Below are positions 1,130 to 29,781 of a stretch of 46,719 bases of DNA, piece after piece. The DNA lies in the IMG/VR virus record IMGVR_UViG_3300028363_000003, positions 1 through 46,719 of that record. One strand, given 5' to 3'. The number at the start of each line of letters is the position of its first letter. Positions within the stretch are counted from its first letter, which is position 1. A model generated the notes under the pieces. The model was not told the DNA's origin and ran no database searches. It saw only the letters and a program-made list of their open reading frames with translations. Position numbers and translations under genes: made by a program. This stretch comes from a virus.

Positions 1130-3664
1130 TTACTTCTTGTTTGTTCGTTTACTTACAAGACCACCTTTGTTACGTCCTTGTGGCCGTGCCCGTGGTCTTG
1201 CTGATGTGGTCGGGGCGTTAGCTGTAACTCCTGCTGCATCTGCTGCCCTATTGTTTCTGGCTATACGGTCGTTTCGCTGACCAGCGTCCTCACTGCTGCT
1301 CCCCATATCAAATTGAACTGTGTCCCCTTGAGAAGGTCTTCCACTGTCACCACCAGCCTTAACGTCGTAAACAGGATTAGACCTAGAAAAGGTTCCTACT
1401 CCTTGGCTGTTGGTGTAAGGAGCTGTCCTTTGACCCGTAGTTCGCCTTGCGTTTACGTTGAGTGACTCCATATAATTCTCGAAGATACCCTCGCCGTCAG
1501 ATATGTCTTTTGAAAGCCTACCCGCAAGACCGAAGTTTCCTCGTGCTTCGTCAGCCATAGCCATCAAACGATCAGAAGACTCTTGGTCACCAATCTGTGA
1601 GTAGTACCGAGCAGCAGCACTCACTTCAGCAATGTCACGCATCCCTACAGCTGCCCTAGCAGCCCCACCTAGGAGACCACCTACTGCCGTTATACCTCGG
1701 TTAGCAAATCTGTCCTTTAGTTTGTCTTCAGCCCATGTCGAAACAGACTCAGTGTCTGTAAAGTCTAGGGTACCAAGGGGATTACCAAAGGCACCCGGCC
1801 CTTCTCCTGAACCAGCACTGATTCCTCTAGTACCCCTAGCATCTCCAGGAGTATTTCTTTCACGACTGCTACCGGTGTTACTAACTGCATTTTGAACTAC
1901 TAAAGGTGTCTCAGAGAAACCAGCTGGGATAGCCTGAGCAGGCTCACCGTTTATAAAGAGAATCATCTGACTAGTTCCACCGGGACCAAAGTATTCCTTG
2001 TAGGTGTAAGCAGAAGAACGCATAAGCTGATCCGCTAGACCAGGAGTATTCCAAGAGGCAGGGTTAAACGTCGGTTGGTTTACAAGACCACCCTCAGCCA
2101 TCATAGGGAGTTCCTCTGTTACGAGGGGTCCTTGTGTCTCCATGGTGTCATCTACAGGTTCACCCCCTACACGCCCATCTTGCTCCATGTCCAGCATACC
2201 CTGCTTAGCCTTAGTACGAAGCTTCTCAAAGAAGTTCACCCCAAAGAACTTTAGGACATCAGCAGGAATAACATACTCACCTTCAGACAACATCGCAGGG
2301 ATATCATCTCTTACATTCTCAGGTGTAGAGCCAGGGGGTACTTCGTTTCCACTAACAGGGTCACGTTCTACAGGACCACCTGCAGCCATAGTCTTAGGGT
2401 TTTTACTATAGTCCACTTTAATTCCTTTAGGTGTTGTGTTGACCTCTGCTAGCTTCTCAGTACCGGAGATGTCTACACTGTTATCCTCTGCAAACTGTCT
2501 CTCAAACTCGAGCGTACTCATCTTGTGCTTACCCACAAACTCTACCTCAGTCATCTTACCAGCAGAAGCTAAGAAGTAATCACTCATAGCATTCTTAGAG
2601 ACTAGACCTCCTTCTGCGTAGCCTTCAGGGCTAGACACAAGACCTCCGTTAGAAAAAGATATGTCTGGTGAAGCAGAGCTGTAAGTCCCAGCAGGACCTT
2701 GCATAGTAGACTTAATTGTGTCAGGATTAAAAATAACCACTTCGTTAATACCTTTTGATGGGGAGAAGGATTGTATCCCTTGAAAACCCTCTTCTTCAAG
2801 AATCGGTCTTAGGACGTTTTGTCCCCACCCCGTGTTTTTCCCTTGGCTATCTTTGAACAGGTCACTTACACTTACGTTTCGACCTTCTTCTAAACTTTCT
2901 AGTACCTCTGTTAAGTGAGGAGTCATGCTCTCTGTAGGAACCTCACTAAGGGATGACATAACTTTGCTTCGCACAACGTCGTCTAACAGTGCCTCATCTG
3001 TGAAAACCTCAGCTACATTTGTGTATACAGGAAACACTTGGCCGCCCATCTTCGCATCCGAAGGGTCAGTAAACCCTCTGTTTAAACTCATAGCATAATC
3101 AGAGGCATCTTTAGAGGAGTCTGTAAGGTACACCCCAGCTCCATAGTCTCCTGTGCTAGAAGGAGAAAGGTTAACTCCTTCAAAGTTTCTGGTGTCTCCT
3201 CTTAGAGTACCAGACATACCATGGTACAAAGGTGTCTGTTCATCTCCTATTTTAAAAAAAGAACCCTCCCCCCACGCTTCTAGTCCACTCGTTTCTGGGC
3301 GAATACGGATGTTACCTCCGAGAGAACCTAGGGCATTAGGGTCTACCTCTACACGTTTAAATCTCTCTACTGCTTCCCGTGCTCCTTTACTAATAAGTTT
3401 AGAAGCTGCATCACCCACTCCAGGAATAAGACCCACGACAGTAGCTCCGCCTAAAGCCCCAACAAGCCACCAGTTTGGGTCTTCTTTTTGTGTCTCTTCG
3501 TAGACCTCTTTTGCAGCCATAGCGTCACCGAGGATAGGTGTCATCTCAGCAATAAATTTAGCAGCCCCCTTTAGGGTGGGGCCACTGGTGTTTGGTCCCT
3601 GCTCTACCCGTCCTCTGTTTCTGTTTTGGATTCTAGGGCTAACCAAGTTTTTATCTTCATCCAT
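1130..3664 (-). CDS. Large virion-associated protein with ADP-ribosyltransferase-like domain
   Basis: 844 residues. Residues about 62-105 hold a hydrophobic segment with the motif VGLIPGVGDA, a pattern often seen ahead of toxin domains in polymorphic toxins. Residues about 145-320 look like the ADP-ribosyltransferase domain of phage polyvalent proteins: YHG (His148), GAGVYLTD (Tyr179) and NEVVIFNPDTIKS (Glu308), which could form an H-Y-E triad. Farther on is a segment DDIPAMLSEGEYVIPADVL, typical of phage structural proteins, and repeated GGLV motifs. The C-terminus is basic. It lies between the small post-portal gene and the scaffold and overlaps the former by 8 nt, so it is probably packaged in the virion. 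Possible role (inference): modification of host proteins after injection, or a structural protein with a vestigial enzyme domain. Confidence 0.6.
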   Translation of the reverse strand: MDEDKNLVSPRIQNRNRGRVEQGPNTSGPTLKGAAKFIAEMTPILGDAMAAKEVYEETQKEDPNWWLVGALGGATVVGLIPGVGDAASKLISKGAREAVERFKRVEVDPNALGSLGGNIRIRPETSGLEAWGEGSFFKIGDEQTPLYHGMSGTLRGDTRNFEGVNLSPSSTGDYGAGVYLTDSSKDASDYAMSLNRGFTDPSDAKMGGQVFPVYTNVAEVFTDEALLDDVVRSKVMSSLSEVPTESMTPHLTEVLESLEEGRNVSVSDLFKDSQGKNTGWGQNVLRPILEEEGFQGIQSFSPSKGINEVVIFNPDTIKSTMQGPAGTYSSASPDISFSNGGLVSSPEGYAEGGLVSKNAMSDYFLASAGKMTEVEFVGKHKMSTLEFERQFAEDNSVDISGTEKLAEVNTTPKGIKVDYSKNPKTMAAGGPVERDPVSGNEVPPGSTPENVRDDIPAMLSEGEYVIPADVLKFFGVNFFEKLRTKAKQGMLDMEQDGRVGGEPVDDTMETQGPLVTEELPMMAEGGLVNQPTFNPASWNTPGLADQLMRSSAYTYKEYFGPGGTSQMILFINGEPAQAIPAGFSETPLVVQNAVSNTGSSRERNTPGDARGTRGISAGSGEGPGAFGNPLGTLDFTDTESVSTWAEDKLKDRFANRGITAVGGLLGGAARAAVGMRDIAEVSAAARYYSQIGDQESSDRLMAMADEARGNFGLAGRLSKDISDGEGIFENYMESLNVNARRTTGQRTAPYTNSQGVGTFSRSNPVYDVKAGGDSGRPSQGDTVQFDMGSSSEDAGQRNDRIARNNRAADAAGVTANAPTTSARPRARPQGRNKGGLVSKRTNKK

Positions 3665-10978: not shown

Positions 10979-11550
10979 TACTTCTTCACCTTGTTCTTAA
11001 ACTTATTCCACCAGGTGGTAAAAGGGTGTTCTTTCTTAACTTTAACCTGCCCGTACTTAATCTCTTGGAGTTCTTTCTGGTAGGCTCTAGCAACTTCCCT
11101 GATTTCACGCATCTTGTCTGCACCGTTGATGATACGTCGAGCGTTCATGTAGTCTGTGCCTTGAGCGTTGATGTAGTCACCGAGACCCTTGCCAGTGAAC
11201 CAACCTTCTCGGCTACCAAGAACGAGTATCTTTGCGGACACCCAAGGTTCCATAACGGAGTCAGGGTCAGTAGTGAGGTCTAGGCCAAGCTCACGGCCAG
11301 CTTTAATGTAGTTGTCTTCCCATGTAAGCTGAACGTATCCTCGCCCATACCAAGGCCAGTAACGTAGGTTCTTCTTTCGCCATGTAGAAGCATTGCGCAC
11401 CCAGTAAGCTTCTTTAACTGGTTTCATCGTGTGTGCTGTTTCCCACCATGCGGTGGCTAAGACGTAAGCAGCTTGGTCCAAAGAAAGACCGTAGACTTGG
11501 CACTCCTTTAGAATAATCTGAGTGTCGCCAAGGTTTAAGTTAATCTTCAT
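10978..11550 (-). CDS. Endolysin, glycoside hydrolase 19-like
   Basis: 190 residues. Residues about 27-50 read QAAYVLATAWWETAHTMKPVK with the likely catalytic Glu37. Later motifs YGRGYVQLTWEDNYIKAG and RRIINGADKMREI are characteristic of the chitinase/lysozyme-like GH19 endolysins. The enzyme should cut the glycan of peptidoglycan. The last ~30 residues are very basic (FTTWWNKFKNKVKK) and may bind membrane or wall polymers. There is no signal peptide, so release would depend on the holin-like protein next door. The gene overlaps the upstream gene by 11 nt. Confidence 0.88.
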   Translation of the reverse strand: MKINLNLGDTQIILKECQVYGLSLDQAAYVLATAWWETAHTMKPVKEAYWVRNASTWRKKNLRYWPWYGRGYVQLTWEDNYIKAGRELGLDLTTDPDSVMEPWVSAKILVLGSREGWFTGKGLGDYINAQGTDYMNARRIINGADKMREIREVARAYQKELQEIKYGQVKVKKEHPFTTWWNKFKNKVKK

Positions 11551-11779
11551 CCCACTCTCTTCTCATATTAGGTTTATAGCAGTCGCTGGGCTTGAGGAAT
11601 CCCTCTTTACGCATAGCCCATTCTACGTGGTCAAGGGAGTATGACACCCCAGTGTCTTGACGTATGGCCTCCCGTACGTAGAAGACATCAGACATAGGGA
11701 TATGCACTCTCTCAGGGTTGTCTGAGTCCAGAAGGTTCTTGTAAAACTCTTCAATGACATTCTCACTTTTGTAGTACAT
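11540..11779 (-). CDS. Conserved hypothetical protein, first gene of leftward late block
   Basis: 79 residues, acidic, soluble, with MSDVFYVREAIRQDTGVSYS and EWAMRKEGFL, suggestive of a small helical fold. No family recognised. It is the first gene left of the non-coding control region; GGAAGAAG precedes the ATG. It overlaps the endolysin start by 11 nt. Confidence 0.65.
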   Translation of the reverse strand: MYYKSENVIEEFYKNLLDSDNPERVHIPMSDVFYVREAIRQDTGVSYSLDHVEWAMRKEGFLKPSDCYKPNMRREWDED

Positions 11780-11792
11780 ATTCTTCTTCCTA

Positions 11793-11820
11793 GTTATATT
11801 TATTTAGGGACACTTGTCAA
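11793..11820 (-). promoter_or_regulatory. sigma70-type promoter of the leftward block
   Basis: Minus strand TTGACA (11815-11820), 16-nt spacer, TATAAC (11793-11798) followed by TAGG. Same spacing and -10 as the promoter at 150-177. The predicted start (about 11786) leaves only a few bases before the first start codon at 11779, so the leader would be very short; this lowers confidence. Confidence 0.45.
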
Positions 11821-11862
11821 CCGTTACTTCGTCTTTGATGACAAGAAAGGTTTTACCTCCTA

Positions 11863-11944
11863 CCCTAAGTATAAAACCCTAAGTATAAACTAAGAGTCTT
11901 TTATAGTTTAGAGGAGTATACCTAAGTATAAGACCTTAAGTATA
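11863..11944 (+). repeat. CCCTAAGTATA repeat cluster
   Basis: Four copies of CC(C/T)TAAGTATA on the plus strand at 11863-11873, 11877-11887, 11921-11930 (10-nt form) and 11934-11944. The first two are 14 nt apart and the last two 13 nt apart. The same element recurs, also inverted, just upstream of the -10 boxes at 14904 and 21121. Behaves like a binding site for a phage regulator or replication protein. Confidence 0.6.
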
Positions 11945-11949
11945 CCCTG

Positions 11950-11980
11950 TTATACTACATGTATACTTATAGTATATAAT
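11950..11980 (+). promoter_or_regulatory. Possible rightward early promoter
   Basis: A perfect TATAAT at 11975-11980 in an AT-rich stretch next to the CTAAGTATA repeats; the best -35 candidate TTATAC (11950-11955) gives a 19-nt spacer. The -35 is weak, so this would need an activator or may be an unwinding element instead. No gene follows for 1.4 kb. Confidence 0.3.
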
Positions 11981-12342
11981 ATAGTGCATGTAGCCCCGGT
12001 TGTCAAGGGGTACCCAGGGTTTATTTACCTTAATGTAGCTTTTCCTCTAAGTACTTACCACTAAAGTTCCTTACACTGGTCACTTCACACTCTCATAAGC
12101 CTAGGAGTACCCAGGGTTCTGTCCTTATCTTGTCATTTAGAGGACCAACCTTCCTACACCACATCAAATTACCACACTAATCCCTTGGTTTACACCATAA
12201 AAGACTAACCGTTGTACTACAAGTATATACTACAAGTGTTAACTGCTCCAAAGTACTTACCAATATGTAAAAATACCCCCCGCTGTCAAAGGGCGTATAT
12301 AAATAACGTACGGCCCCCCGGTGGCCCCTGCACCCCTAGCTT

Positions 12343-12368
12343 GAACGTGGTTCATGAACGTGGTTCAC
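12343..12368. repeat. Tandem 13-bp palindromic repeat
   Basis: GAACGTGGTTCA occurs twice head to tail (12343-12355 and 12356-12368). Each copy contains the inverted repeat GAAC-GTG-GTTC, so two symmetric sites lie 13 bp apart. Likely a protein-binding site. Confidence 0.5.
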
Positions 12369-12483
12369 AGGATAAATAACACCATTCTACTAGCTAAACC
12401 ATTGATATAACACGATAGTTTACACAATTAGTCATCGTGTATGTCCTTTTTGTCACACCTAGTGGGGTATCTGAGTACCGTTG

Positions 12484-12498
12484 TGTTATATCATAACA
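12484..12498. repeat. 15-bp perfect palindrome
   Basis: TGTTAT-ATC-ATAACA: six-base arms around a three-base centre, the usual shape of an operator for a dimeric regulator. It lies alone in the control region. Confidence 0.4.
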
Positions 12499-12649
12499 GT
12501 ATGCATCACGTGGGCTAGCGCCATGTAACCATAACGCAACACTGCTGTGCCATTTATACCACATACATCCTCACAGCCACACAGAGGGCCGCTACAAGCC
12601 CTTCTTACGTTTTACCTAGGGTCAGGTCACTAAAACTCAGGTTGACGAT

Positions 12650-12710
12650 TTGTTCACCCCTTGTTCTACTTTGTTCACCCCTTGTTCTACTTTGTTCACC
12701 CCTTGTTCTG
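12650..12710. repeat. Three tandem 21-bp direct repeats
   Basis: Unit starts TTGTTCACCCCTTGTTCT: copies at 12650-12670 and 12671-12691 are identical, the third (12692-12709) is identical through base 18. No spacer separates the copies and there is no CRISPR architecture. Pyrimidine-rich strand. Candidate iteron or operator array in the control region. Confidence 0.7.
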
Positions 12711-13348
12711 GTTACGTTCCTCAGCCATGCTCTGAGCGCATAGCTCTTATGCAATCTTAGCACTGGTCATTCTGCTGCACAATTCCTAACATACTTAGGG
12801 ATTCTTTACGTGATAAATGTTACAAACGCTGTAATATTTCGTGATTTGCTAGGTAGTCGGTTTCATGACCTTAATGTCTTACGAAACGACCACCGGTAGA
12901 CGGTCCACTTAGTCTCCACGTTCTTTATATTTCCACCCTGTTCAGGGTTCCCTTTGTCCTAGGGGTCGCGCCTCACTAGCGCATGGACACATACAAGGGT
13001 CGCAAGACTTTCCCCTAGGGGTTCACTTGGCCCGCTTCACATTTTCAACAGTGTGCACAGTGTCTGATAGGTGTGATGTAGTGTCACCTGTAAAAAAGTT
13101 TCGGCTAAGACCCGACTACTCAGACAAGCGTTAGCTATAAGCATTTATTGCAATGGGTTCCCCTTGTCATAATAGTGTCAATTTACCTTTTAAAGGTCGG
13201 TTGCCTGTTATGCTTTGACCCATAGTCGATAGGTGCGCGATAAGTCTAACCTAGGGATATATGCGTGAACGCAACGGGCTAACCCCTAAACGCTTTACGT
13301 GATGAGACAATACAACTAAACACGACTTAATGAGGGGTCCAAAACCCT

Positions 13349-13376
13349 AACACTGCCCTAACAGGTGGTGTTTTTT
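13349..13376 (+). terminator. Hairpin terminator upstream of first rightward gene
   Basis: AACACTGCC (13349-13357) pairs with GGTGGTGTT (13364-13372), with two G-T pairs, around a 6-nt loop; T tract 13371-13376 follows. Oriented to stop rightward transcripts coming from the control region before they reach the gene at 13452, so it may be an attenuator or an early/late insulation element. Confidence 0.5.
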
Positions 13377-13451
13377 ACGTTGTGTTTTAGTTGTGTCTTA
13401 TGGAGTGTTACACGGTGTAGCATTCCTTGGATACAACTAAAGGTGTATAAA

Positions 13452-13985
13452 ATGACTACTTTTACTTTCAAGATGGATGATGCTCAGATTATCGCTGGTA
13501 TTAAAAGCGTTGGACAACGTTCTAAGTCTATTCGCGTTGACATCCAGAAACTTGCGGTGTCAATCACACTAAACTGGGCGAAGGCTGGGGCAGCAAATAT
13601 TGCTGCTGAACGTATGACTGACCTACTGAATAATATGGACCCAAGCCATAAACAGAAGCTAGTAAATTGGTGTGACTCTTTTTGCGGGTTTTCTTTGGTG
13701 GATAACAAAGATGGTGAAAAGGTGTTTGCCTATAGCCGAACAAAAATGAGTGAGAAGCAATGGGGTGAGGCGAAAGCTGCCAACCTGTTTGACTTCACAC
13801 CTGACTTGCCGCCTGTTGCCTTCAACTTCAAGGCTAAGTTTGCACAGTTGATTGCTGCTGCTGAAAAGCGTAGCGCCGTGACTGATGCGACGAAGCGTAA
13901 CGCAGATGATGATATCCCTGCTGAGCTGGTGGCCAGTGCTAAGGCACTGCTCGCTGCAATGCCAGAGGTTGAACCTGACTTCTAA
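13452..13985 (+). CDS. Early protein of unknown function
   Basis: 177 residues from ATG at 13452 (AAAGGTG just upstream); an in-frame extension to 13365 would lie over the terminator and is not used. Mostly helical and Ala/Lys-rich, with SVGQRSKSIRVDIQKLAVSI near the N-terminus, a WCDSFCGF motif in the middle and an Ala/Glu-rich C-terminus (AELVASAKALLAAMPE). No family recognised. Being the first gene of the rightward block it is probably expressed early. It could be a host-takeover or regulatory protein, but no DNA-binding motif is evident. Confidence 0.7.
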   Translation: MTTFTFKMDDAQIIAGIKSVGQRSKSIRVDIQKLAVSITLNWAKAGAANIAAERMTDLLNNMDPSHKQKLVNWCDSFCGFSLVDNKDGEKVFAYSRTKMSEKQWGEAKAANLFDFTPDLPPVAFNFKAKFAQLIAAAEKRSAVTDATKRNADDDIPAELVASAKALLAAMPEVEPDF

Positions 13986-14783: not shown

Positions 14784-14839
14784 GGTATACTATGAAATAT
14801 AAGCTTACCAAGAAGCAAGTAAGGTACCAGTTAAACTAA

Positions 14840-14947
14840 CCTAGGGTATATACTCTAAGTATCTACTCTTCTAAACCCTTAAATACCTTAAGTATACTTA
14901 GGGTATAATAAGATACACTAAAAGAAACTTAAGTCAAGGAGAAAGTT
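14840..14947 (+). promoter_or_regulatory. Promoter/operator module A (near-copy at 21039)
   Basis: Contains TATAAT (14904-14909). Directly upstream lies the perfect palindrome TAAGTATACTTA (within 14889-14900), formed by CCTTAAGTATA (14886-14896) and the inverted TATACTTAGGG (14893-14903). Further blocks GGTATATACTCTA and ACTCTTCTAAACC, and the leader element AAGTCAAGGAGAAA, are shared with module B at 21039-21165. No good -35 is seen at 17 nt. Transcript would start the cassette beginning at 14948. Confidence 0.65.
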
Positions 14948-15343
14948 ATGCTAGAGTTTGTGCTCTTTGCTATCGACGACGGACACAACTTACACAAGCG
15001 CAAGAAGTTTATGCACTACGTGGATACTCTCCGTGCCATGGGTAAAGCATCTACGGTGCACCTTTGTGTTGGTAAGTATAAGGGGAATCTTGAAGGCTCT
15101 TACCTTATGCTCTCAAAAGACTATGACAACCACATACAAGGGCGTGAGTATGTCAAGTATCAAGAGAGTGTACTCAGGGTACCTGGTGACACTCGACAGC
15201 CCTGTGTGCTTGAGTTCTCTGATGGAAGTTCTATCGTAGCTGGAGGTATGTCACAAGTGTCCCCTGAAGCAGCAATGAAACTTGATAGTTGGACCTACGT
15301 AGAGGAGACAGGTAAGTACTTTACCTGTGGTTCCTTTGTTTAG
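14948..15343 (+). CDS. Hypothetical protein, first gene after promoter A
   Basis: 131 residues, soluble, no cofactor motif. Begins MLEFVLFAIDDGHNLHKRKK; the middle contains LGVG-like KASTVHLCVGKYKG and the C-terminus ends TGKYFTCGSFV. Excellent AAGGAGAAAG ribosome binding site. It overlaps the next small gene. No family recognised; by position it may belong functionally to the amidoligase cassette that follows. Confidence 0.65.
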   Translation: MLEFVLFAIDDGHNLHKRKKFMHYVDTLRAMGKASTVHLCVGKYKGNLEGSYLMLSKDYDNHIQGREYVKYQESVLRVPGDTRQPCVLEFSDGSSIVAGGMSQVSPEAAMKLDSWTYVEETGKYFTCGSFV

Positions 15344-15557
15344 TGTGGGTGACAGGGTACAGTGTGGAGATGGCAATGAAGTATTCACAGTCACTGCTGT
15401 TACTGACGCTCCACCCCGGGTAAGCTTAGGTGGTACCCGCGACCATTGGTATCCCTCACGTATATTCACTCTAGTAACCCCTGTTGCTCCTGTCAAGCCT
15501 AAACTAACAGGTATGGCTCAGTTCCTAAAGGATACGGAGGATAAATATGTCACGTAA
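15336..15557 (+). CDS. Small SH3-like protein, paralogue of 21166 gene
   Basis: 73 residues from TTG at 15336, chosen because the resulting MFSVGDRV aligns with MFQVGDEV of the gene at 21166; a longer GTG start (15327) exists. The body is short beta-strand-like segments (VFTVTAVTD, RVSLGG) and both proteins end with KPKLTGMAQFLKDTE or its close variant. The VGDxV start and strand pattern suggest an SH3-like or KOW-like barrel. Both paralogues follow copies of the same promoter module, so this is a duplicated unit. Function unknown. Confidence 0.6.
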   Translation: MFSVGDRVQCGDGNEVFTVTAVTDAPPRVSLGGTRDHWYPSRIFTLVTPVAPVKPKLTGMAQFLKDTEDKYVT

Positions 15558-20400: not shown

Positions 20401-21044
20401 CCTTTGAACCTAAGACTAAACCAGAGGAAACAGCTAAGGAATATGCTAACTCTTTCGTTGACTACCTCAATGAAGACGTCTCGTTCTCTAACACACCTGA
20501 CTTGCCTGTCCTACGGTATGCTAAGATCATCCCTGTCTTTATCTGGGATGAACTCAAGACCTACAAAGGTCTAGCCGAGGCAGCAAACATCACACATGAT
20601 ATGCACGAGACAGATCAGTACCTTGTACACAGTAAGCAGAAGTATCTTCCGTTCATCAATGCCGCTGACAAGCCGGGGTCTCATCACGACATGCTCTTGC
20701 CTTCCAGCCCTGAGTGGACTAAGGGTTTCAAGGTTAACCCTATGAAGAACATCCCCACTCGACACTTAGCGGGACGCATCATCCACGTAAACCTTGAGGC
20801 TATCCAGTCTCTCGATCGCTACTACTACAACACTTCTTTCCACGTACGTCACAAGGCTTTGTTCTGCCGCCCTCAAGGTGCGCAAGAAGAGCTGAGTGCT
20901 TGGCTGTACACTGTGCCCACTCGTAACATCACTAAGTACCTTCCTCATGAGAACACCTACGAGATGCTACGGGGCTTCAGACCTAAGCAGTGCTCAAGTA
21001 ACATGGGTGGCCCTTACACAAGTACGCACCAACGTCCAACCTAA
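20385..21044 (+). CDS. Degenerate GGCT-like protein, last gene of cassette
   Basis: 219 residues. Compared with the GGCT gene at 16766, IIPVFIWDELKTYKG resembles its VFVYGTLKEGYG strand-loop, and LAGRIIHVNLEAIQSLDRYY followed by AWLYTVPTRN resembles its VVGELYEADSVESFLSLDFL and C-terminal strand. The catalytic Glu position is Tyr here, so a binding or scaffolding role is more likely than catalysis. The N-terminus (about 45 residues) is extra. The alignment is by eye and weak; an unrelated fold is possible. It overlaps the amidotransferase gene by 16 nt and ends just before promoter module B. Confidence 0.5.
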   Translation: MPNLLTFEPKTKPEETAKEYANSFVDYLNEDVSFSNTPDLPVLRYAKIIPVFIWDELKTYKGLAEAANITHDMHETDQYLVHSKQKYLPFINAADKPGSHHDMLLPSSPEWTKGFKVNPMKNIPTRHLAGRIIHVNLEAIQSLDRYYYNTSFHVRHKALFCRPQGAQEELSAWLYTVPTRNITKYLPHENTYEMLRGFRPKQCSSNMGGPYTSTHQRPT

Positions 21045-21165
21045 GGTATATACTCTAGGCACTATACCCTGAGTGTTATACTCTTCTAAACCTTTAAATA
21101 CTTAGGGTATATACTTAAGGTATAATAAGATAGCAGACTTCTTTTGTAAGTCAAGGAGAAAAGAT
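21039..21165 (+). promoter_or_regulatory. Promoter/operator module B (near-copy of 14840)
   Basis: Shares with module A the blocks GGTATATACTCTA, ATACTCTTCTAAACC, TTAAATAC, CTTAGGGTATA, GGTATAATAAGATA and the leader AAGTCAAGGAGAAA. TATAAT lies at 21121-21126, preceded by CTTAGGGTATA and TATACTTAAGG copies of the repeated element. Spacing between blocks differs slightly from module A. It drives the small-gene block starting at 21166 and probably the integrase. Confidence 0.65.
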
Positions 21166-21375
21166 ATGTTTCAAGTAGGAGACGAGGTAAGAAACTATTC
21201 CACAATCTACACTGTCGTGGGGGTGGTAGGTAACCGTGTAAGTGTCATTGATGAACAGGGTCAAAACACGGGGGGCACCTTCTCTATGTCTTCGTTTACC
21301 CTAGCCAAACCTAGACTAACAGGTATGACACAGTTCCTCAAAGATACGGAGAAGAAGTATGAAACACTTAGCTAA
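21166..21375 (+). CDS. Small SH3-like protein, paralogue of 15336 gene
   Basis: 69 residues beginning MFQVGDEVRN, with strands IYTVVGVVGNRVSVI and the shared C-terminal KPRLTGMTQFLKDTEKKY. The matching gene behind promoter A has the same start and end, so gene and promoter were duplicated together. Strong AAGGAGAAAA binding site. Function unknown. Confidence 0.65.
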   Translation: MFQVGDEVRNYSTIYTVVGVVGNRVSVIDEQGQNTGGTFSMSSFTLAKPRLTGMTQFLKDTEKKYETLS

Positions 21376-21756: not shown

Positions 21757-21795
21757 ATGGACGGAGCGTTGACACCCCTCAGTCTAGACGTATGA
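21757..21795 (+). CDS. Tiny leader peptide coupled to integrase
   Basis: 12 codons (MDGALTPLSLDV) with a very strong GAGGAGG site upstream, ending in ATGA so its stop overlaps the integrase start. The integrase itself has no good ribosome binding site, so its translation may depend on this leader. Could also simply be chance; no homologues can be checked here. Confidence 0.35.
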   Translation: MDGALTPLSLDV

Positions 21796-22889
21796 AGTAT
21801 GTCAAAGAGTACACAGCTAACGGTAAGAAAGTATGGCGGTTCAACTGCCCAAAGGATGTAGCTGCTGCTGGGGTTACCAAGTCTCAGACCTTCGAGGATG
21901 GACGCATAGCTCGCTTTGAGTTACCACGGTTAGTCCTCCTCGTTGGACAGTACCGCAAGGGTGACATCAAGGAAGGCACGGTGGGTGTGCACTCTCTCAT
22001 GGTTCACCTGCTCAACCACTATTTACGTACTGATTACTTCAGGCAGCTGGCTGGTTCCTCTCAGAAACAATACGAGTCTGTCTTAGGATTATGTCTCTCC
22101 ACTAGCGTCGGCAGCAAGACCTTTGGTGACATCAAGGTGACAGAGGTAGACGCTAAGCTATGCCGTGACCTCTACACTAAGTGGACCGAGCAAGGGTCTG
22201 TCTCCACAGCTAACACCAAGGCACGTATCTTGTCAGTGTTGTTGAACTACGCAGTGAGCATTGAGCTACTCGTTAACAACCCAATGGCTAAGGTACGGAA
22301 GCTGAAGCATGAACCTACCACACGTATATGGACACAAGGAGAGGTAGAGAAGTTGCTTGAGGTAGGGTACCAAGGGTTTGCCCTAAGGAACATCGCCCTG
22401 CTAGCTCACATGTGCTATGAGTACGCACAGAGGCCTGTTGATATCTCCCTTCTTACATGGGAGCAGGTAGACTTTGATACTAACTGTATCACTATACGTC
22501 AGACTAAGCGTGGTGCTACTGTCCACCTCCCTATTGAAGAACCACTGTGTACCATGCTGTTAACACAACAAGACGAGTGGGGTTTCCAAAAGTATGTCGT
22601 CCCTCACCAGACGCCAAGAGGTTCAGTGTACCACCCGATGAGCAGAGCAGAGATGAACACACAGTTTGTTACTCTCCGGGACACAGCAGGACTGCACCCC
22701 GATCTACAACTGGGCCTGCTACGTAAGACCGCTATATCGGAGTTGGTTCAGGCTGGAGTTGACGCGGTAGGTATCATGCAAGTTACAGGGCATAAGAGCA
22801 TACAGAGTTTAAACCCCTACATGGTCAACACCTTAAAAGGTTCTTCGTCAGCGTTGTCAGCAAGGACAGGTAGGAAGACACCTAAGTAA
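21792..22889 (+). CDS. int: Tyrosine recombinase / integrase
   Basis: 365 residues. Core-binding domain about 65-170, catalytic domain about 175-345. Catalytic residues: Arg214 in YAQRPVDISLLTW, likely Lys239 in QTKRGATV, Arg311 in LGLLRKTAISEL, His334 in TGHKSIQ and Tyr343 in NPYM. The usual His just before the second Arg is replaced (GLLR). Catalyses site-specific insertion and excision of the phage genome. No excisionase or repressor is recognised nearby and the attachment site could not be located. The start overlaps a 12-codon leader peptide. Its position between the early cassette and replication genes resembles integrase placement in marine podoviruses. Confidence 0.85.
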   Translation: MKYVKEYTANGKKVWRFNCPKDVAAAGVTKSQTFEDGRIARFELPRLVLLVGQYRKGDIKEGTVGVHSLMVHLLNHYLRTDYFRQLAGSSQKQYESVLGLCLSTSVGSKTFGDIKVTEVDAKLCRDLYTKWTEQGSVSTANTKARILSVLLNYAVSIELLVNNPMAKVRKLKHEPTTRIWTQGEVEKLLEVGYQGFALRNIALLAHMCYEYAQRPVDISLLTWEQVDFDTNCITIRQTKRGATVHLPIEEPLCTMLLTQQDEWGFQKYVVPHQTPRGSVYHPMSRAEMNTQFVTLRDTAGLHPDLQLGLLRKTAISELVQAGVDAVGIMQVTGHKSIQSLNPYMVNTLKGSSSALSARTGRKTPK

Positions 22890-23885: not shown

Positions 23886-24294
23886 TGTAAAAGATGAAGC
23901 TCTGGAAGTATTCATGTTAAATAATACAACAGAAGACACACCCTGCCGCAGCCTTATAACAAAAGCATTCAAAGAGGGATGGAAGGCACGTAAGAAATCT
24001 GAGTACGAGGAAACAGAGTACATCCGCAAGGATACCTACGGCGCAGTGGTTGCTGACCTTGAGGAAGTAAGGGAAGAGTTAACCTGGGAATATGACACAG
24101 GTCACCTTATAAGATCAGCCGCAGACCGTATCACCGAACAGGCGGCTGAGATTGAACGGCTGCGCGATGCTTTGAACCGCATCGTTTCAGCGTCTGATTA
24201 TTACTGTAGAGAAAACACCGATCATGAAGCGATGACACTCGCCTATGCCCACAAATCGACAGGACACATCGCCCGCGCCGGTCTCAAGGAGTAA
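23878..24294 (+). CDS. Alphaproteobacterial-prophage-like hypothetical protein
   Basis: 138 residues. The middle and end (SAADRITEQAAEIERLRDAL and TGHIARAGLKE) strongly resemble a repeated type of small helical protein in phages of Rhodobacterales and relatives. It contains a coiled coil. The nucleotide sequence of its 3' half (24100-24290) is richer in GC and in CG dinucleotides than its neighbours, pointing to recent transfer. AAGGAGAACAAG precedes the ATG. Function unknown; it is useful mainly as a hint to the host group. Confidence 0.6.
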   Translation: MTNVKDEALEVFMLNNTTEDTPCRSLITKAFKEGWKARKKSEYEETEYIRKDTYGAVVADLEEVREELTWEYDTGHLIRSAADRITEQAAEIERLRDALNRIVSASDYYCRENTDHEAMTLAYAHKSTGHIARAGLKE

Positions 24295-24295
24295 T

Positions 24296-26878
24296 ATGAA
24301 ACAAAGCACACCCCCAATTAAGACACACCGTACCTGCCCCTCGTGTGGTGCAGGGGGTAGCTACTCAGTGTGGGCTAACGGTGCTGGCTATTGCCACTCC
24401 TGTGACAAGTCCTCACGAGGCGAAGCTACCCATGAGAAACAAGTAGAACGAAAGGAACCAAGCCCTATGACAACAGACCTAACCCTTAAGTACCACCCTA
24501 TGCGAGGCGTAGATGGTGACGTAGAGAAGTTCTACGGGGTACAGACAGGTATGTCTGAGAGTGGTGACCCAGTCACCAGAGTATACCCTTACCCTCACCG
24601 ACCCAAGACACGTATCCTACCCAAAGACTTCTCTAAGAACTATGGGTTTACCAACGATTACCTCTTTGGTATGGACAAGTTTAACGCAGGTAGCTCTAAG
24701 TACCTGACGATTACTGAAGGGGAGGAAGATGCTCTTGCTGCTTACCAACTGTTAGGCAAGACTTTCCCTGTTGTATCCCTACCTTCTGCTGGTTCAGTCA
24801 AGTCTGTCCTCCAGAATAAAGAAGCATACAACTACATCAAAGCTTTCTCTGCTATCATCCTCGCTACTGATAACGACGAGGCAGGTAACAAGAGTGCAGA
24901 GATTCTCCAACGTGCATTCCCAGGACGGTGCTACCGTGTGAACATGTCTACCCACAAGGATGCCTCGGCATACCTACAGGCTGGTCACGGTTCAGACTTC
25001 AAGTATGCTTGGATCAATCGTCAGAAGTACGTACCTGACAATGTGTTCAACACGACAGACCAGTTCGAGAAGATTATCCGTGACGACAAAGGCTCTATGT
25101 ATATCCCAACAGGTATCAAAGACCTTGACTCACGGTTGCTTGGGCTTATGCAGGGTCACTTTACTGTGTTTACTGCACCAGAGGGCGTTGGCAAGCAACT
25201 ACCGAACACGACCCTTATACCTACACCTACTGGGTTTCAGACTATGGGAGGGTTAAAATTGGGGGATGAGGTTGTAGGTGGTGATGGTAAACCAACTAAA
25301 ATTACGTACATCACGGAGACACAGCACAACGTACCTTGCTTTGAGCTTACGTTTTCTGACGGCACAACGCAGGTAGCTGGTGGCCCACACAGGTGGGGTG
25401 TTGTTAACACTGACGGCAAGTATAAGGTTAAGACTACTGACGAGATTATTGAGGAAGGCGTAACCCGTGGAGACGGTGTAGCATTGTACTCTGTCCCTAT
25501 CTGTCAACCTCTTGTCCTGCCTACTGCTGATCTAGTCCTCGATCCTTACTCATTTGGACTTTGGCTTGGGGATGGAAACTCCTGCAGCCGTGGTATTACA
25601 GTGGGGTACACTGACCGAGAAGTCTTTGAGACTCTTACTGATGTTGAAAGATGTGTAGAGTATCCAGCAGGTGTGACTTACTACTTGAATACACTAAGCC
25701 ATAAAGACCTTGTGTCTGAAGGAGTCTTAAAGAATAAACATATCCCAGAGGACTACCTTCGGGGTTCTATTGAACAACGTACCCGTCTATTGCACGGTAT
25801 GATGGATAGCGACGGGGGCACACAGGGTTCTGGTTGTGAGTTCTATACTTCAAGTGCCCAGCTACGGGATGACTTCCTTGAGCTTGCCCGTAGTCTTGGC
25901 TACAAGTGTCGAGTACGTTCTAAGCAGAGTAAACTGTACGGTGTCCCTAAGAAGATAGCATACACTGTTTGGTTCTTAGCTCACGGTGATCGACCCATCT
26001 TTAAGTATCCCCGTAAACAGGATAAGGTTGTCTACTGTAAGACACGACGAGCAACACACAAGACTATCCGAAGCATTGTACCTGTGGAATCAGTACCTTC
26101 ACGTTGCTTGACAGTTGACAATGAGGATCACTTGTTCCTCTGTGGTGAGGCCTATACTGTGACGCATAACACAGAGCTTATGCGTAAGCTGGAGTATAAC
26201 CTCTTGGCTAACCACCCTACTATTCCTATCGCTATCATGCACCTTGAGGAAACAAAGAAGCGTAGTCTCCTAGGTCTTGCATCATATTTCTTAAACAAAG
26301 ATGTGACACTACAGGACACAGAGACAATCACTAACGATAGGGGTGACGAGGAGATTGTATACCTCCCGAGTTACAAGGGTACCTCAGAGGACGAAGTGCT
26401 ACAGGCTATCAAAGAGTTTACTGATCGTGAAAACTTCTATCAGTTTACCCTAAGTGTAGACGATGACCCTATGTCTATCCTCGAACAGATCAGGTACTTT
26501 GCTGAGGTGTGTGGCTGTCGGTACGTGTTCTTTGAACCTATCCAAGACCTAGCCTACTCACGGCAGAGTGAATCAAGTATCGAGGGATGGCTCAGTGAGC
26601 TGTCTACTAAGCTTGCCCGTCTTGCCACTGAGCTAGGGGTAGGTATCGTGTCTATTGCTCACGAGAATGACGATGGGCAGATACGTGACTGCCGTATGAT
26701 TGGTAAGCGAGCCAGTGTTGTCATCAAGTTAAGCCGTGATAAGCTTGCCGCTGATGAGGAGACTAAGAACACAACACAGCTTCTTGTAGATAAGAACCGA
26801 CCCGTCGGGCCAACAGGCTTCGGAGGTATGCTAGAATTTCACCCCGAATCTTTCACACTTTCAGAAAAGGAATTTTAG
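24296..26878 (+). CDS. Primase-helicase (T7 gp4-like) with intein
   Basis: 860 residues including a 325-residue intein; mature protein 535 residues, close to the T7 gp4 length. Zinc-binding primase start CPSCG (Cys14, Cys17) and CHSC (Cys33, Cys36), TOPRIM core with TEGEEDALA and ATDNDEAG, then a RecA-type helicase with Walker A APEGVGK joined after splicing to TEL. Later helicase motifs include HLEETKKRSLLG, FFEPIQDLAY and VDKNRPVGPTG. Start chosen at 24296 because AAGGAGTAAT precedes it. It primes and unwinds DNA at the fork for the DNA polymerase at 27569. Its last residues LSEKEF recur at the end of the next gene. Confidence 0.9.
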   Translation: MKQSTPPIKTHRTCPSCGAGGSYSVWANGAGYCHSCDKSSRGEATHEKQVERKEPSPMTTDLTLKYHPMRGVDGDVEKFYGVQTGMSESGDPVTRVYPYPHRPKTRILPKDFSKNYGFTNDYLFGMDKFNAGSSKYLTITEGEEDALAAYQLLGKTFPVVSLPSAGSVKSVLQNKEAYNYIKAFSAIILATDNDEAGNKSAEILQRAFPGRCYRVNMSTHKDASAYLQAGHGSDFKYAWINRQKYVPDNVFNTTDQFEKIIRDDKGSMYIPTGIKDLDSRLLGLMQGHFTVFTAPEGVGKQLPNTTLIPTPTGFQTMGGLKLGDEVVGGDGKPTKITYITETQHNVPCFELTFSDGTTQVAGGPHRWGVVNTDGKYKVKTTDEIIEEGVTRGDGVALYSVPICQPLVLPTADLVLDPYSFGLWLGDGNSCSRGITVGYTDREVFETLTDVERCVEYPAGVTYYLNTLSHKDLVSEGVLKNKHIPEDYLRGSIEQRTRLLHGMMDSDGGTQGSGCEFYTSSAQLRDDFLELARSLGYKCRVRSKQSKLYGVPKKIAYTVWFLAHGDRPIFKYPRKQDKVVYCKTRRATHKTIRSIVPVESVPSRCLTVDNEDHLFLCGEAYTVTHNTELMRKLEYNLLANHPTIPIAIMHLEETKKRSLLGLASYFLNKDVTLQDTETITNDRGDEEIVYLPSYKGTSEDEVLQAIKEFTDRENFYQFTLSVDDDPMSILEQIRYFAEVCGCRYVFFEPIQDLAYSRQSESSIEGWLSELSTKLARLATELGVGIVSIAHENDDGQIRDCRMIGKRASVVIKLSRDKLAADEETKNTTQLLVDKNRPVGPTGFGGMLEFHPESFTLSEKEF
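25196..26170 (+). mobile_element. Class 3 intein with LAGLIDADG endonuclease motifs
   Basis: 325 residues inserted in the helicase P-loop between GVGK and TEL. Block A: TTLIPTPTGFQTMGGLKLGD. The first residue is Gln, so the normal N-terminal nucleophile is absent. The class 3 trio is present: Trp67 (block B, PHRW), Cys304 (block F, SRCLTV) and Thr323 just before the terminal His-Asn (VTHN), with Thr at +1. A LAGLIDADG-type endonuclease lies in the middle: FGLWLGDGN and RLLHGMMDSDGG. It should splice out of the protein and its nuclease could home into intein-free helicase genes. Confidence 0.88.
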
Positions 26879-27568: not shown

Positions 27569-29003
27569 ATGACCCTAGTAGTAGTCTCGGATTGCGAAAC
27601 AGATGGGCTAGACCCTGACAACCTGTGGTGTGTGGTCAATAAAGAACTTGGAGCTAAGTCCTACAAAACGTGGGACTTCAACTCAGGGTATGAAACCTTC
27701 ATTGACTACGCAAAGACAGTAGACCGCTGGGTATTCCACAACGGTATAAGCTATGATGGTCCCGTGATAAACAAACTACTCGGGTCCACCGTGATTGATC
27801 CCTTTAAAATCTGTGATACTTTTGTTGTGTCCCGCCTTGTTAACTACATGGGGTACAACGGTCACGGACTAGATGAGATCGGTATCTCCCTTGGGCAGCC
27901 TAAGACAGTCTTCAATGACTGGGAGAAGTACACACCAGAGATGTTGTCCTACTGTAAGGATGACGTAGACCTAGGCACAAAGATATACAATAAGTACAAG
28001 AAGTATATCGACGACCCTGCTTGGGCTATGTCTATGGAGACTGAGCACCGGATGGCTATGTTGTGTAAGAAGATGCACGACAATGGTTTCAAGTTCAACC
28101 TTCAGTTAGCTAACGAAGTCCTACCTCAGATACAAGACAGACTTGACGAACTTAGCGCAGGGATGCAACGTGCTTTCCCACCTGAGCTTAAGGAGGTTCA
28201 CCGTATCCAGTACCGTACTAAGGCAGACGGTGAGCTCTACGCTACCACAGCTAACGCTATGGATAACTTCCCTAAGACTGTGATCGACGGTGATGAGCTG
28301 GTGTGTTTCGATTGGGTATCGTTTAACCCTGGGTCACACCTGGATCGTATCGATAAACTCTGGGATGCAGGGTGGAGCCCTACTGAGAAGTCTAAGGCAC
28401 ACTATAAGTTCTCTCAACGGGGTGCAGTAGGTGACAAGTGGGGTAAGAAAGTCCTTACTCAGGAGACGTATGACGCTAAGAAGGAAGAGTTCGAACACTA
28501 CGGCTGGACGGTAAGCGATGAGAACCTTGAGACACTCCCAAGCACAGCCCCTCAGGGTGCTCGTGACCTTGCTGAGTGGTTGTGCCTCAACGGTAGACTA
28601 AAGCCACTAGAGGAGCGTATCAGGGAGTGTGAGAGGGACGGACGTATCCGCACTAACTTCTGGCATATCGGGGCATGGACCCACCGTATGTCCCACTCGT
28701 CTCCTAACCTAGCTAATATCTCCTCACCATTTCAGGGGGAAGTAGTCACTGCTGTTGACCTTGTTAAGGAGAGGTTCGACGGTCAACTACGTGCTATGTT
28801 TACAGTGGACGAAGGCAACTGGCTAGTAGGTACAGACGCTGAGTCTATCCAGCTACGTATCCTAGCTCACTACCTAAAGAACGACGAGTACGTTAAGGCT
28901 ATCACTGAAGGGAGGAAAGAAGATGGAACAGATATCCACAACGTTAACCGTGCAGCACTCGGACTTGAGCACCTTACTCGGGACCACGCCAAAACTTTTA
29001 TCT
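27569..29003 (+). CDS. DNA polymerase family A, exon 1 (exonuclease and most of polymerase)
   Basis: Codes for residues 1-478 plus the first base of codon 479; unspliced translation would stop at 29017. Proofreading exonuclease motifs: SDCETDG (Asp8, Glu10), FHNGISYDG, and YCKDDVDLG. The polymerase part has RMSHSSPNLANI (motif A region upstream), VGTDAESIQLRILAHYL (motif A) and RDHAKTFI, the first half of motif B. Motif B is completed only by exon 2. The enzyme is T7-like and replicates the phage genome with the primase-helicase. Joined length is 638 residues, slightly short of T7 DNA polymerase. AAAGGAGTAGGAC precedes the start. Confidence 0.92.
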
Positions 29004-29299
29004 TAAAGCTAGGATAACTTAGGGGTAACCCTTCGATTAAAACCTCGTGAACTCAGGGGAGGCCTCTAGTAGGTAATCCTGAGCCAAGCTAAGTAAACAA
29101 AAAGCTATTGATTACTTAGAAGGTGCAACGACTATCGAAAGCACATCGAAAGATGGAAGTTAGTAGAGTACACCCAAGTGGGTGGAAGCGCGAGGCTCCT
29201 GCTGTAAGCAGGATGATGATATAGTCTAGTCTATGCGGCGACGTGTAGCAGTTCATAAGAGAACGGGCTGAGCTTAACGAACTCAGTTGAATAAAAACG
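29004..29299 (+). ncRNA. Group I self-splicing intron in DNA polymerase gene
   Basis: 296 nt, no open reading frame inside. P1: exon end TTATCT (28998-29003) pairs with GGATAA (29012-29017), giving the expected U-G pair at the splice site. P6-like stem CTAAGTAA/TTACTTAG (29089-29096, 29112-29119). P7: GACTAT (29130-29135) with ATAGTC (29221-29226). CTCTAGTAGGTAATCC resembles the P4-P6 region of phage td-type introns. The last base is G (29299). Joining T29003 to A29300 restores motif B as KTFIYAWLLGAG in frame. Confidence 0.9.
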
Positions 29300-29781
29300 A
29301 TGCTTGGCTACTCGGAGCAGGAAACGGCAAGGTCGCTAGAATCTTGGGCTGTACAACACGACAGGCGAAGGGGGCGGTGGATTCTTTCGTTGACCGTACC
29401 AAGGGACTTGGGAAACTTAAATCAGGACTTATCCGTAGGGATGCAGCCCGAGGTTTCTTTGAAGGTTTCGACGGTAGAAAAGTTATCTGTCCCTCAGAGT
29501 ACTTAATGTTAGCAGGTTATCTGCAGAATGGAGAGGCTGTAATCATGAAGAGAGCCAACTGGCTATGGGACAAGTGGTGCACAGAGGATGGCTTGAACTT
29601 CAAGCAAGTCAATCTTGTTCACGATGAATTTCAAACAGAAGTTTGTGGGACGTATGAAGAGGCAGAAAGAGTAGGTTACCTGCAGTGTAAATCTCTTGTA
29701 GCTACAGGAGAAGAACTCGGATTGTTTTGCCCCATGTCTGGTGAGACACGTATAGGGAGGTCTTGGCTTGAAACCCACTGA
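29300..29781 (+). CDS. DNA polymerase family A, exon 2 (C-terminal fingers and palm)
   Basis: Supplies the last two bases of codon 479 and 159 further residues. Begins with the rest of motif B (YAWLLGAGNGKVARILG), contains DGRKVICPS and motif C VNLVHDEFQTEV (palm His-Asp), and ends RIGRSWLETH. A separate start at 29287 (TTG) lies in the intron and would give a useless fragment; the splice explains the split. It overlaps the downstream HNH gene start by 14 nt. Confidence 0.9.

Follow-up and report, generated by a model that had tools for sequence, protein, structure and literature searches.

LexA-type boxes between the divergent gene arms of an HMO-2011-type marine podovirus

Results

A gene-free region lies between two divergent gene arms

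The stretch of viral DNA analysed here (the window; 46,719 nt, to which all coordinates refer) encodes a terminase, a portal protein, a primase/helicase, a family-A polymerase and a B12-type ribonucleotide reductase. All ORFs of note left of position 11780 run leftward and cover structural, packaging and lysis functions, and the ORFs from 13452 to 40790 run rightward and make up the replication arm. This gene set and a search with the terminase (69% identical to that of Roseobacter phage CRP-13 and 61% to that of HMO-2011) place the phage, by its conserved genes and its divergent two-arm layout, among the HMO-2011-type podoviruses, described in the available text of PMC9038755 as a dominant marine viral group with a wide distribution. 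The window is contained in a longer contig, G001 (IMGVR_UViG_3300028370_000001; 57,902 bases; G001 coordinate = window position + 7100), whose two ends share 127 bases, closing it into a circle of 57,775 bases (57.8 kb); matched stretches of the window, G001 and a further contig, G002, are 99.995–100% identical. A terminase scan of bacterial genome and metagenome-assembled genome (MAG) contigs gave six loci (L176–L181), none recognized as a prophage of a plausible host; they are HMO-2011-type contigs in MAGs labelled Flavobacteriales, Neomarinimicrobiota, Blastopirellula and Bacteroidetes, and are probably misbinned phage DNA.

The two arms diverge from a non-coding region of 1.67 kb (11780–13451) without an ORF of at least 60 aa. 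The original prediction that no gene is present at 12343–12710 stands, with no ORF of that length between 11780 and 13364; the small ORFs in the gap (20–56 aa) lie across each other on the two strands and seem incidental. Isolates are also gene-free at the equivalent place (964 bases in CRP-13, 1209 in CRP-2 and 1480 in CRP-207), and the suggestion that this is a switch region for leftward and rightward transcription fits both the divergence of the arms and the equivalent gap in the relatives examined. The first leftward gene (11540–11779, minus strand) encodes a 79-aa three-helix protein found in all 11 genomes compared, and the first rightward gene (13452–13985, plus strand; scanned from an upstream GTG at 13365) belongs to phrog_1448, function unassigned. 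A sigma-70-like leftward promoter candidate, TTGACA-17-TATATT (11978–12006, minus strand), matches the consensus at 11 of 12 positions but is equally frequent in shuffled sequence, with three such sites in the region against a shuffle mean of 3.5. Terminator-like sites number four against a shuffle mean of 1.4; one of them, a hairpin immediately upstream of the first rightward gene (13349–13372, plus strand), lies in the path of any rightward transcripts begun at the boxes described below. Rfam found no family in the region, and a blastn search of the phage collection for distant similarity to it gave no match.

Several features elsewhere in the window are recorded for completeness. The sole Rfam match of the window is a group I intron (RF00028, 28994–29248; 83.8 bits, gathering threshold 50), which separates two parts of the family-A DNA polymerase (27569–29017 and 29287–29781). 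The primase/helicase ORF (24245–26878, 877 aa) probably contains an intein, with a PF05204 homing-endonuclease match at residues 500–575 between Toprim (156–244) and DnaB_C (728–858); PHROG terminase matches at residues 309–646 may reflect a shared intein. Diverged duplicates, 81–84% identical, pair 14838–14915 with 21038–21132 and 15494–15549 with 21306–21361, and carry AAGTATA-type repeats that also occur at 11866–11970, possibly as shared promoter or operator sequences. An ORF beside the control region (14948–15343) has a weak match to S-adenosylmethionine lyase (PF23780; 28.7 bits against a cut-off of 28) and is a possible anti-restriction gene.

Tandem repeats rather than palindromes exceed chance

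The original prediction had placed three repeat classes within about 400 nt, and all three were recovered there: two tandem copies of the TGAACGTGGTTCA palindrome (GAAC-N3-GTTC; 12342–12354 and 12355–12367), the TGTTAT-ATC-ATAACA palindrome (12484–12498) and three copies of a 21-bp repeat (12649–12669, 12670–12690 and 12691–12711), the third copy being 90% identical. Their density had been offered as the signal, and we compared it with that of the 1.67-kb region shuffled 500 times at the dinucleotide level. Palindromes are no denser than shuffling often makes them, and their density was rejected as the signal: the four palindromes with arms of at least 6 in the region were equalled in 96 of 500 shuffles, and the three with arms of at least 5 in 12343–12711 in 126 of 500. 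The 13-mer tandem and the triple 21-bp repeat do exceed chance, with no immediate 13-mer tandem in any of the 500 shuffles and a longest tandem run of 40 matches at period 21 against a shuffle maximum of 15.

Each 21-bp repeat contains GTTC-ACCCCTT-GTTC, a direct GTTC repeat with a 7-base spacer, giving boxes 1 to 3 (12652–12666, 12673–12687 and 12694–12708, all plus strand), and a fourth box, GTTC-TGGTTAC-GTTC (12705–12719, plus strand), overlaps box 3. All four follow GTTC-N7-GTTC, the direct repeat of alphaproteobacterial LexA operators, and on both strands of the 57.8-kb circle these are the only four copies, all in the control region and none elsewhere. The 21-bp repeats look like transcription-factor operators of LexA type rather than plain iterons. 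The promoter scan found nothing convincing at the boxes, its result being no higher than in shuffles; a weak candidate rightward promoter, TTGACG-17-TCTACT (12642–12670, plus strand), overlaps box 1 and was read by eye; the scan, whose rule demands A as the second base of the second hexamer, did not report it.

A conserved core is flanked by rapidly changing operators

A family-conserved core (12253–12328), immediately left of the tandem palindromes, first emerged when the gap was compared with related contigs by blastn; the window has a diverged copy of GTGGTTAACAG...CTGTCA...TATA...ACG...TGGCCC. An alignment of 33 sequences shows strong conservation across some 75 bases. The core can be recognized in both CRP-13 and CRP-9, more weakly also in HMO-2011, CRP-2 and CRP-603, and may act as a promoter, an origin core or a regulator site. 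An RNA element was rejected, with no Rfam family in the region and no covarying structure or helix in the core.

A degenerate pattern of the core retrieved 75 stretches from the viral collection, of which three (L126, L168 and L170) were dropped as non-family matches. The remaining 72 loci, together with the window, CRP-9 and CRP-13, were filtered by length and shared 14-mers to 34 non-redundant regions, each scored from the core to +650 (22,055 bases in total). Because the core pattern derives from the earliest metagenomic matches, these loci share it by construction; the window is an inexact match and was positioned manually.

GTTC-N7-GTTC occurs 51 times in the 34 regions, where the remainder of their contigs would predict 0.32 copies and a Markov model 0.2, although the loci are related and not independent. 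Other GTTC spacers are rare (four copies each at spacers 6 and 8), inverted forms at spacer 7 are absent, and the 13 copies at spacer 18 are due to tandem arrays. Boxes occur in 16 regions, and 18 are without the dyad. The unit is a GTTC pair, often single or 23–34 bp from its neighbour and on either strand, with minus-strand boxes about 280–430 bp and plus-strand boxes about 374–530 bp from the core; in five regions (L133, L134, L146, L159 and L166) a minus and a plus box lie 90 bp apart, and the window boxes sit at +404 to +457. Boxes of the form TGATTCGTTCCTGATTCGTTC (L136, L149, L154, L172, L175 and CRP-9) carry GANTC in or beside the LexA-type dyad; GANTC is the CcrM methylation site of Alphaproteobacteria, and methylation there might tune binding to the boxes.

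We also compared 11 genomes judged near-complete, six of them (G016, G030, G032, G036, G014 and G019) without end overlap. The five carriers have 19 boxes in the region and three elsewhere, and the six non-carriers none in the region and three elsewhere. Among 13 isolates (CRP-1, -2, -3, -9, -13, -207, -212, -235, -345, -603 and -738, HMO-2011 and HTVC033P), CRP-9 alone has LexA-type boxes in the region, and one host strain, FZCC0023, is listed for CRP-1, CRP-2, CRP-9 and CRP-13. In a terminase tree of 21 rows with five carriers, box presence requires at least two to three changes and carriers are weakly clustered, a result compatible with either answer on repeated box gain and proving neither. 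Given the single isolate, the one host strain listed for phages with and without boxes, and the changes on the tree, the boxes are an option that lineages gain and lose rather than a fixed part of the region.

Other dyads occupy the same place. GTTTAA-NN-TTAAAC (in 14 of the 34 regions), TGTGATCACA (in 8) and ATTC-N8-GAAT (in 11) are absent, or nearly so, elsewhere. TGTTAT-N3-ATAACA is found in four of the 34 (the window and three others) but nowhere in the roughly 280 kb that their contigs span beyond these regions, and the two copies of GAAC-N3-GTTC belong to the window phage alone. The CtrA-type TTAA-N7-TTAA was not notably enriched (4 versus 0.8 expected in the 34 regions together), and CtrA control was rejected. 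For pairs whose coding parts match at 80–89%, the matching fraction is 0.78 in the left gap and 0.40 right of the core, which we read as fast operator turnover beside a conserved core.

Origin, genome end and attachment site

The skew and box-spacing data bear on the suggestion of an iteron origin, in which a phage initiator would bind GTTC monomers every 10–11 bp and open the duplex near the core. The GTTC repeats of the window recur every 11/10/11/10/11 bp, relatives have tandem 11-bp arrays, the strongly conserved core has TATA and C-rich parts, and each of the 11 genomes has its minimum of cumulative GC skew between −216 and +801 bp relative to the core. The skew agrees with an origin here but is confounded, since gene direction flips at the same point and skew cannot separate an origin from a transcription switch. 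DnaA boxes were rejected, with no TTATCCACA anywhere in the circle and a single TTATNCACA far away. Many relatives have an isolated spacer-7 pair, on both strands, 18 of the 34 regions lack the dyad altogether, and no gene follows the distribution of the boxes. The phage also has a T7-gp4-like primase/helicase with a family-A polymerase, and replication of this type is known to start from transcripts rather than iterons. We consider an iteron-type origin unlikely, while an origin at this place and an operator array could both be true.

A physical genome end was likewise suggested, and a packaging or end region (terminal repeat, cos or pac) would account for one pattern: among loci L102–L175, the right-hand end lies no more than 400 bp from the core in 18 of 43 whole contigs, and this holds for no left-hand end. 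These ends, however, scatter from 32 bp upward over hundreds of bases and differ among near-identical strains; the window, G001 and G002 read straight through at 100% identity, and the end overlaps of 125–127 bp in G001, G006 and G035 are those expected of circular assembly. The drop in similarity right of the core would break assemblies anyway, and we read the cluster of contig ends as probable breakage at a hypervariable stretch, although it might mark a biological discontinuity; because the ends scatter and many contigs read through, a physical end is less likely, and overall we regard it as very improbable.

An attP flanked by integrase arm-type repeats is hardly credible. The phage does encode a tyrosine recombinase/integrase (21792–22889, plus strand; PF00589, 62.5 bits), and short direct repeats can be integrase arm sites. 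The integrase gene is nonetheless 9 kb away, no tRNA or tRNA piece was found, some box carriers have no detected integrase, and the attL/attR primers for CRP-3 given in the available text of PMC6918029 map to 2829–3642, away from the divergence region.

As a set, the family's boxes resemble alphaproteobacterial SOS sites

GTTC-N7-GTTC is described as the LexA site of Alphaproteobacteria in the accessible parts of PMC3323433, PMC12700426 and PMC4211646. In SOS cassettes reached by a plasmid search with DnaE, the dyad lies upstream of annotated imuA by 55 bases in Paracoccus, 76 in Agrobacterium and 73 in Shinella, and it is also nearby in two unannotated cassettes (Paracoccus aminovorans and Indioceanicola); the betaproteobacterial control, Burkholderia, has CTGT-N8-ACAG instead. 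A host matrix was built from the spacer and flank letters of six cassette boxes; two of the six (L215 and L218) come from unannotated stretches where the imuA link is assumed. Against it, the 51 phage boxes score a mean of 1.29, compared with −2.09 for their own letters shuffled and −0.67 for the best of 2000 shuffled sets; host boxes left out one at a time score 1.5 to 7.3. With this matrix of six boxes, window boxes 1 to 3 score low (−0.9, −0.9 and −3.1) and box 4 scores 4.5, so that the signal of the family is stronger than that of the window phage itself. Phage boxes and alphaproteobacterial SOS promoters (imuA, lexA and recA) share both GTTC-N7-GTTC and a T-rich spacer end. They differ in number and composition: SOS promoters usually have one box, whereas the window has a run of three or four whose spacers are C-rich, an arrangement unusual for LexA given that about 97% of Caulobacter SOS promoters have a single box (PMC12700426, in the text available).

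The boxes could instead be operators of a phage-encoded regulator that recognizes GTTC direct repeats. Operator types do turn over rapidly at the same place, a behaviour typical of phage-owned regulators, and the 79-aa neighbour occurs in all 11 genomes, with a predicted structure of three confident helices (mean pLDDT 78), of which the two best predicted (30–43 and 49–58) could form a DNA-binding unit. This protein might bind DNA. It is, however, equally present in box non-carriers, and it was rejected as a known DNA-binding protein: it showed no recognized DNA-binding fold, no Pfam or PHROG match and no PDB match with E < 1, and its best BFVD match is an uncharacterized phage protein (E 0.033). 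A phage gene tracking the boxes was also rejected, as no protein family (ORFs of at least 45 aa, 11 genomes) is in all five carriers and absent from the six non-carriers. Among 40 ORFs of the window Pfam identified no domain of a known repressor, of CI or of LexA, where novel folds could escape, and the LexA domain PF01726 is absent from all six frames of the window record. With dyad and spacer preferences that fit real SOS promoters, a phage-owned regulator appears improbable to us.

Discussion

On balance we lean towards reading this locus as a divergent control region whose 21-bp repeats form a host-LexA operator array controlling divergent transcription. Host LexA dimers would occupy the boxes on one face of the DNA, spaced by two helical turns, and hold down transcription starting here, probably that running rightward to the replication genes; upon host DNA damage, RecA-driven LexA cleavage would release it. 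Other regulators would act at TGTTAT-N3-ATAACA in the window and, in relatives, at GTTTAA-NN-TTAAAC or TGTGATCACA, and would be exchanged quickly between lineages.

Such an array would not be tied to integration, as the carriers CRP-9 (no integrase annotated), G016, G030 and G032 (none detected) show. A classical lysogeny switch is at most possible, because boxes occur in one of 13 isolates and several carriers have no detected integrase. CRP-3 integrates, and the available text of PMC6918029 names no repressor for it; its integration and the integrase of the window make a LexA-held prophage possible. Even a lytic phage could meet low LexA, because SOS genes, including lexA, can rise in SAR11 cells infected by HTVC027P, according to the part of PMC12753301 available. 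A broader proposal, which we offer as speculative and doubtful, is that some dominant marine podoviruses, integrase-less ones included, read the host SOS state: in an undamaged cell LexA on the boxes would defer or throttle the replication genes, as a repressed episome or in pseudolysogeny, sunlight or other damage would release them, and neighbouring lineages would have swapped operators at the same spot.

Judging by titles and the beginnings of abstracts, the literature searched holds no account of LexA boxes in HMO-2011-type phages, and the passages of the one paper found to mention both HMO-2011 and LexA concern other phages; the available text of PMC9038755 has nothing on this region under intergenic, origin, promoter or terminal. 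If the host-LexA reading is true, the operator array would be a simple answer to the wait-or-kill choice of HMO-2011-type phages and would link that choice to DNA damage in surface waters, so that phages of this abundant marine group may sense the DNA-damage alarm of their hosts.

The isolates HMO-2011, CRP-1, CRP-2, CRP-3, CRP-9 and CRP-13 resemble the window phage in genome plan, terminase, and conserved control region with its core element. Control of phages by host LexA has precedents, CTX-phi and phage 186 among them. One close parallel is Bacillus phage GIL01, which, in the accessible portions of PMC4551915 and PMC6182141, has SOS boxes at its control promoter and host LexA as the proposed sensor. 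As in GIL01, the window phage has a set of SOS-type boxes in its control region and no CI-like repressor was found in it, with host LexA the proposed sensor. Unlike GIL01, it has the alphaproteobacterial direct-repeat box, is a podovirus with divergent arms and has several fellow carriers without detected integrase; GIL01 also has the gp7 co-repressor, whereas no gp7-like protein was identified in the window phage, whose LexA sites are putative. A second parallel comes from Brevundimonas phage Delta and others, in which a 1.3-kb gap between divergent genes is full of CtrA sites and lytic deferment has been proposed (available text of PMC9437464). Those sites are TTAA-N7-TTAA and were tested by mobility shift, and the candidate sites of the window phage are GTTC-N7-GTTC; both phages nevertheless have a gap between divergent genes packed with sites of host-regulator type, and the LexA reading would fit a wider pattern of Alphaproteobacteria phages borrowing host regulators, as the same portion of PMC9437464 describes for CtrA.
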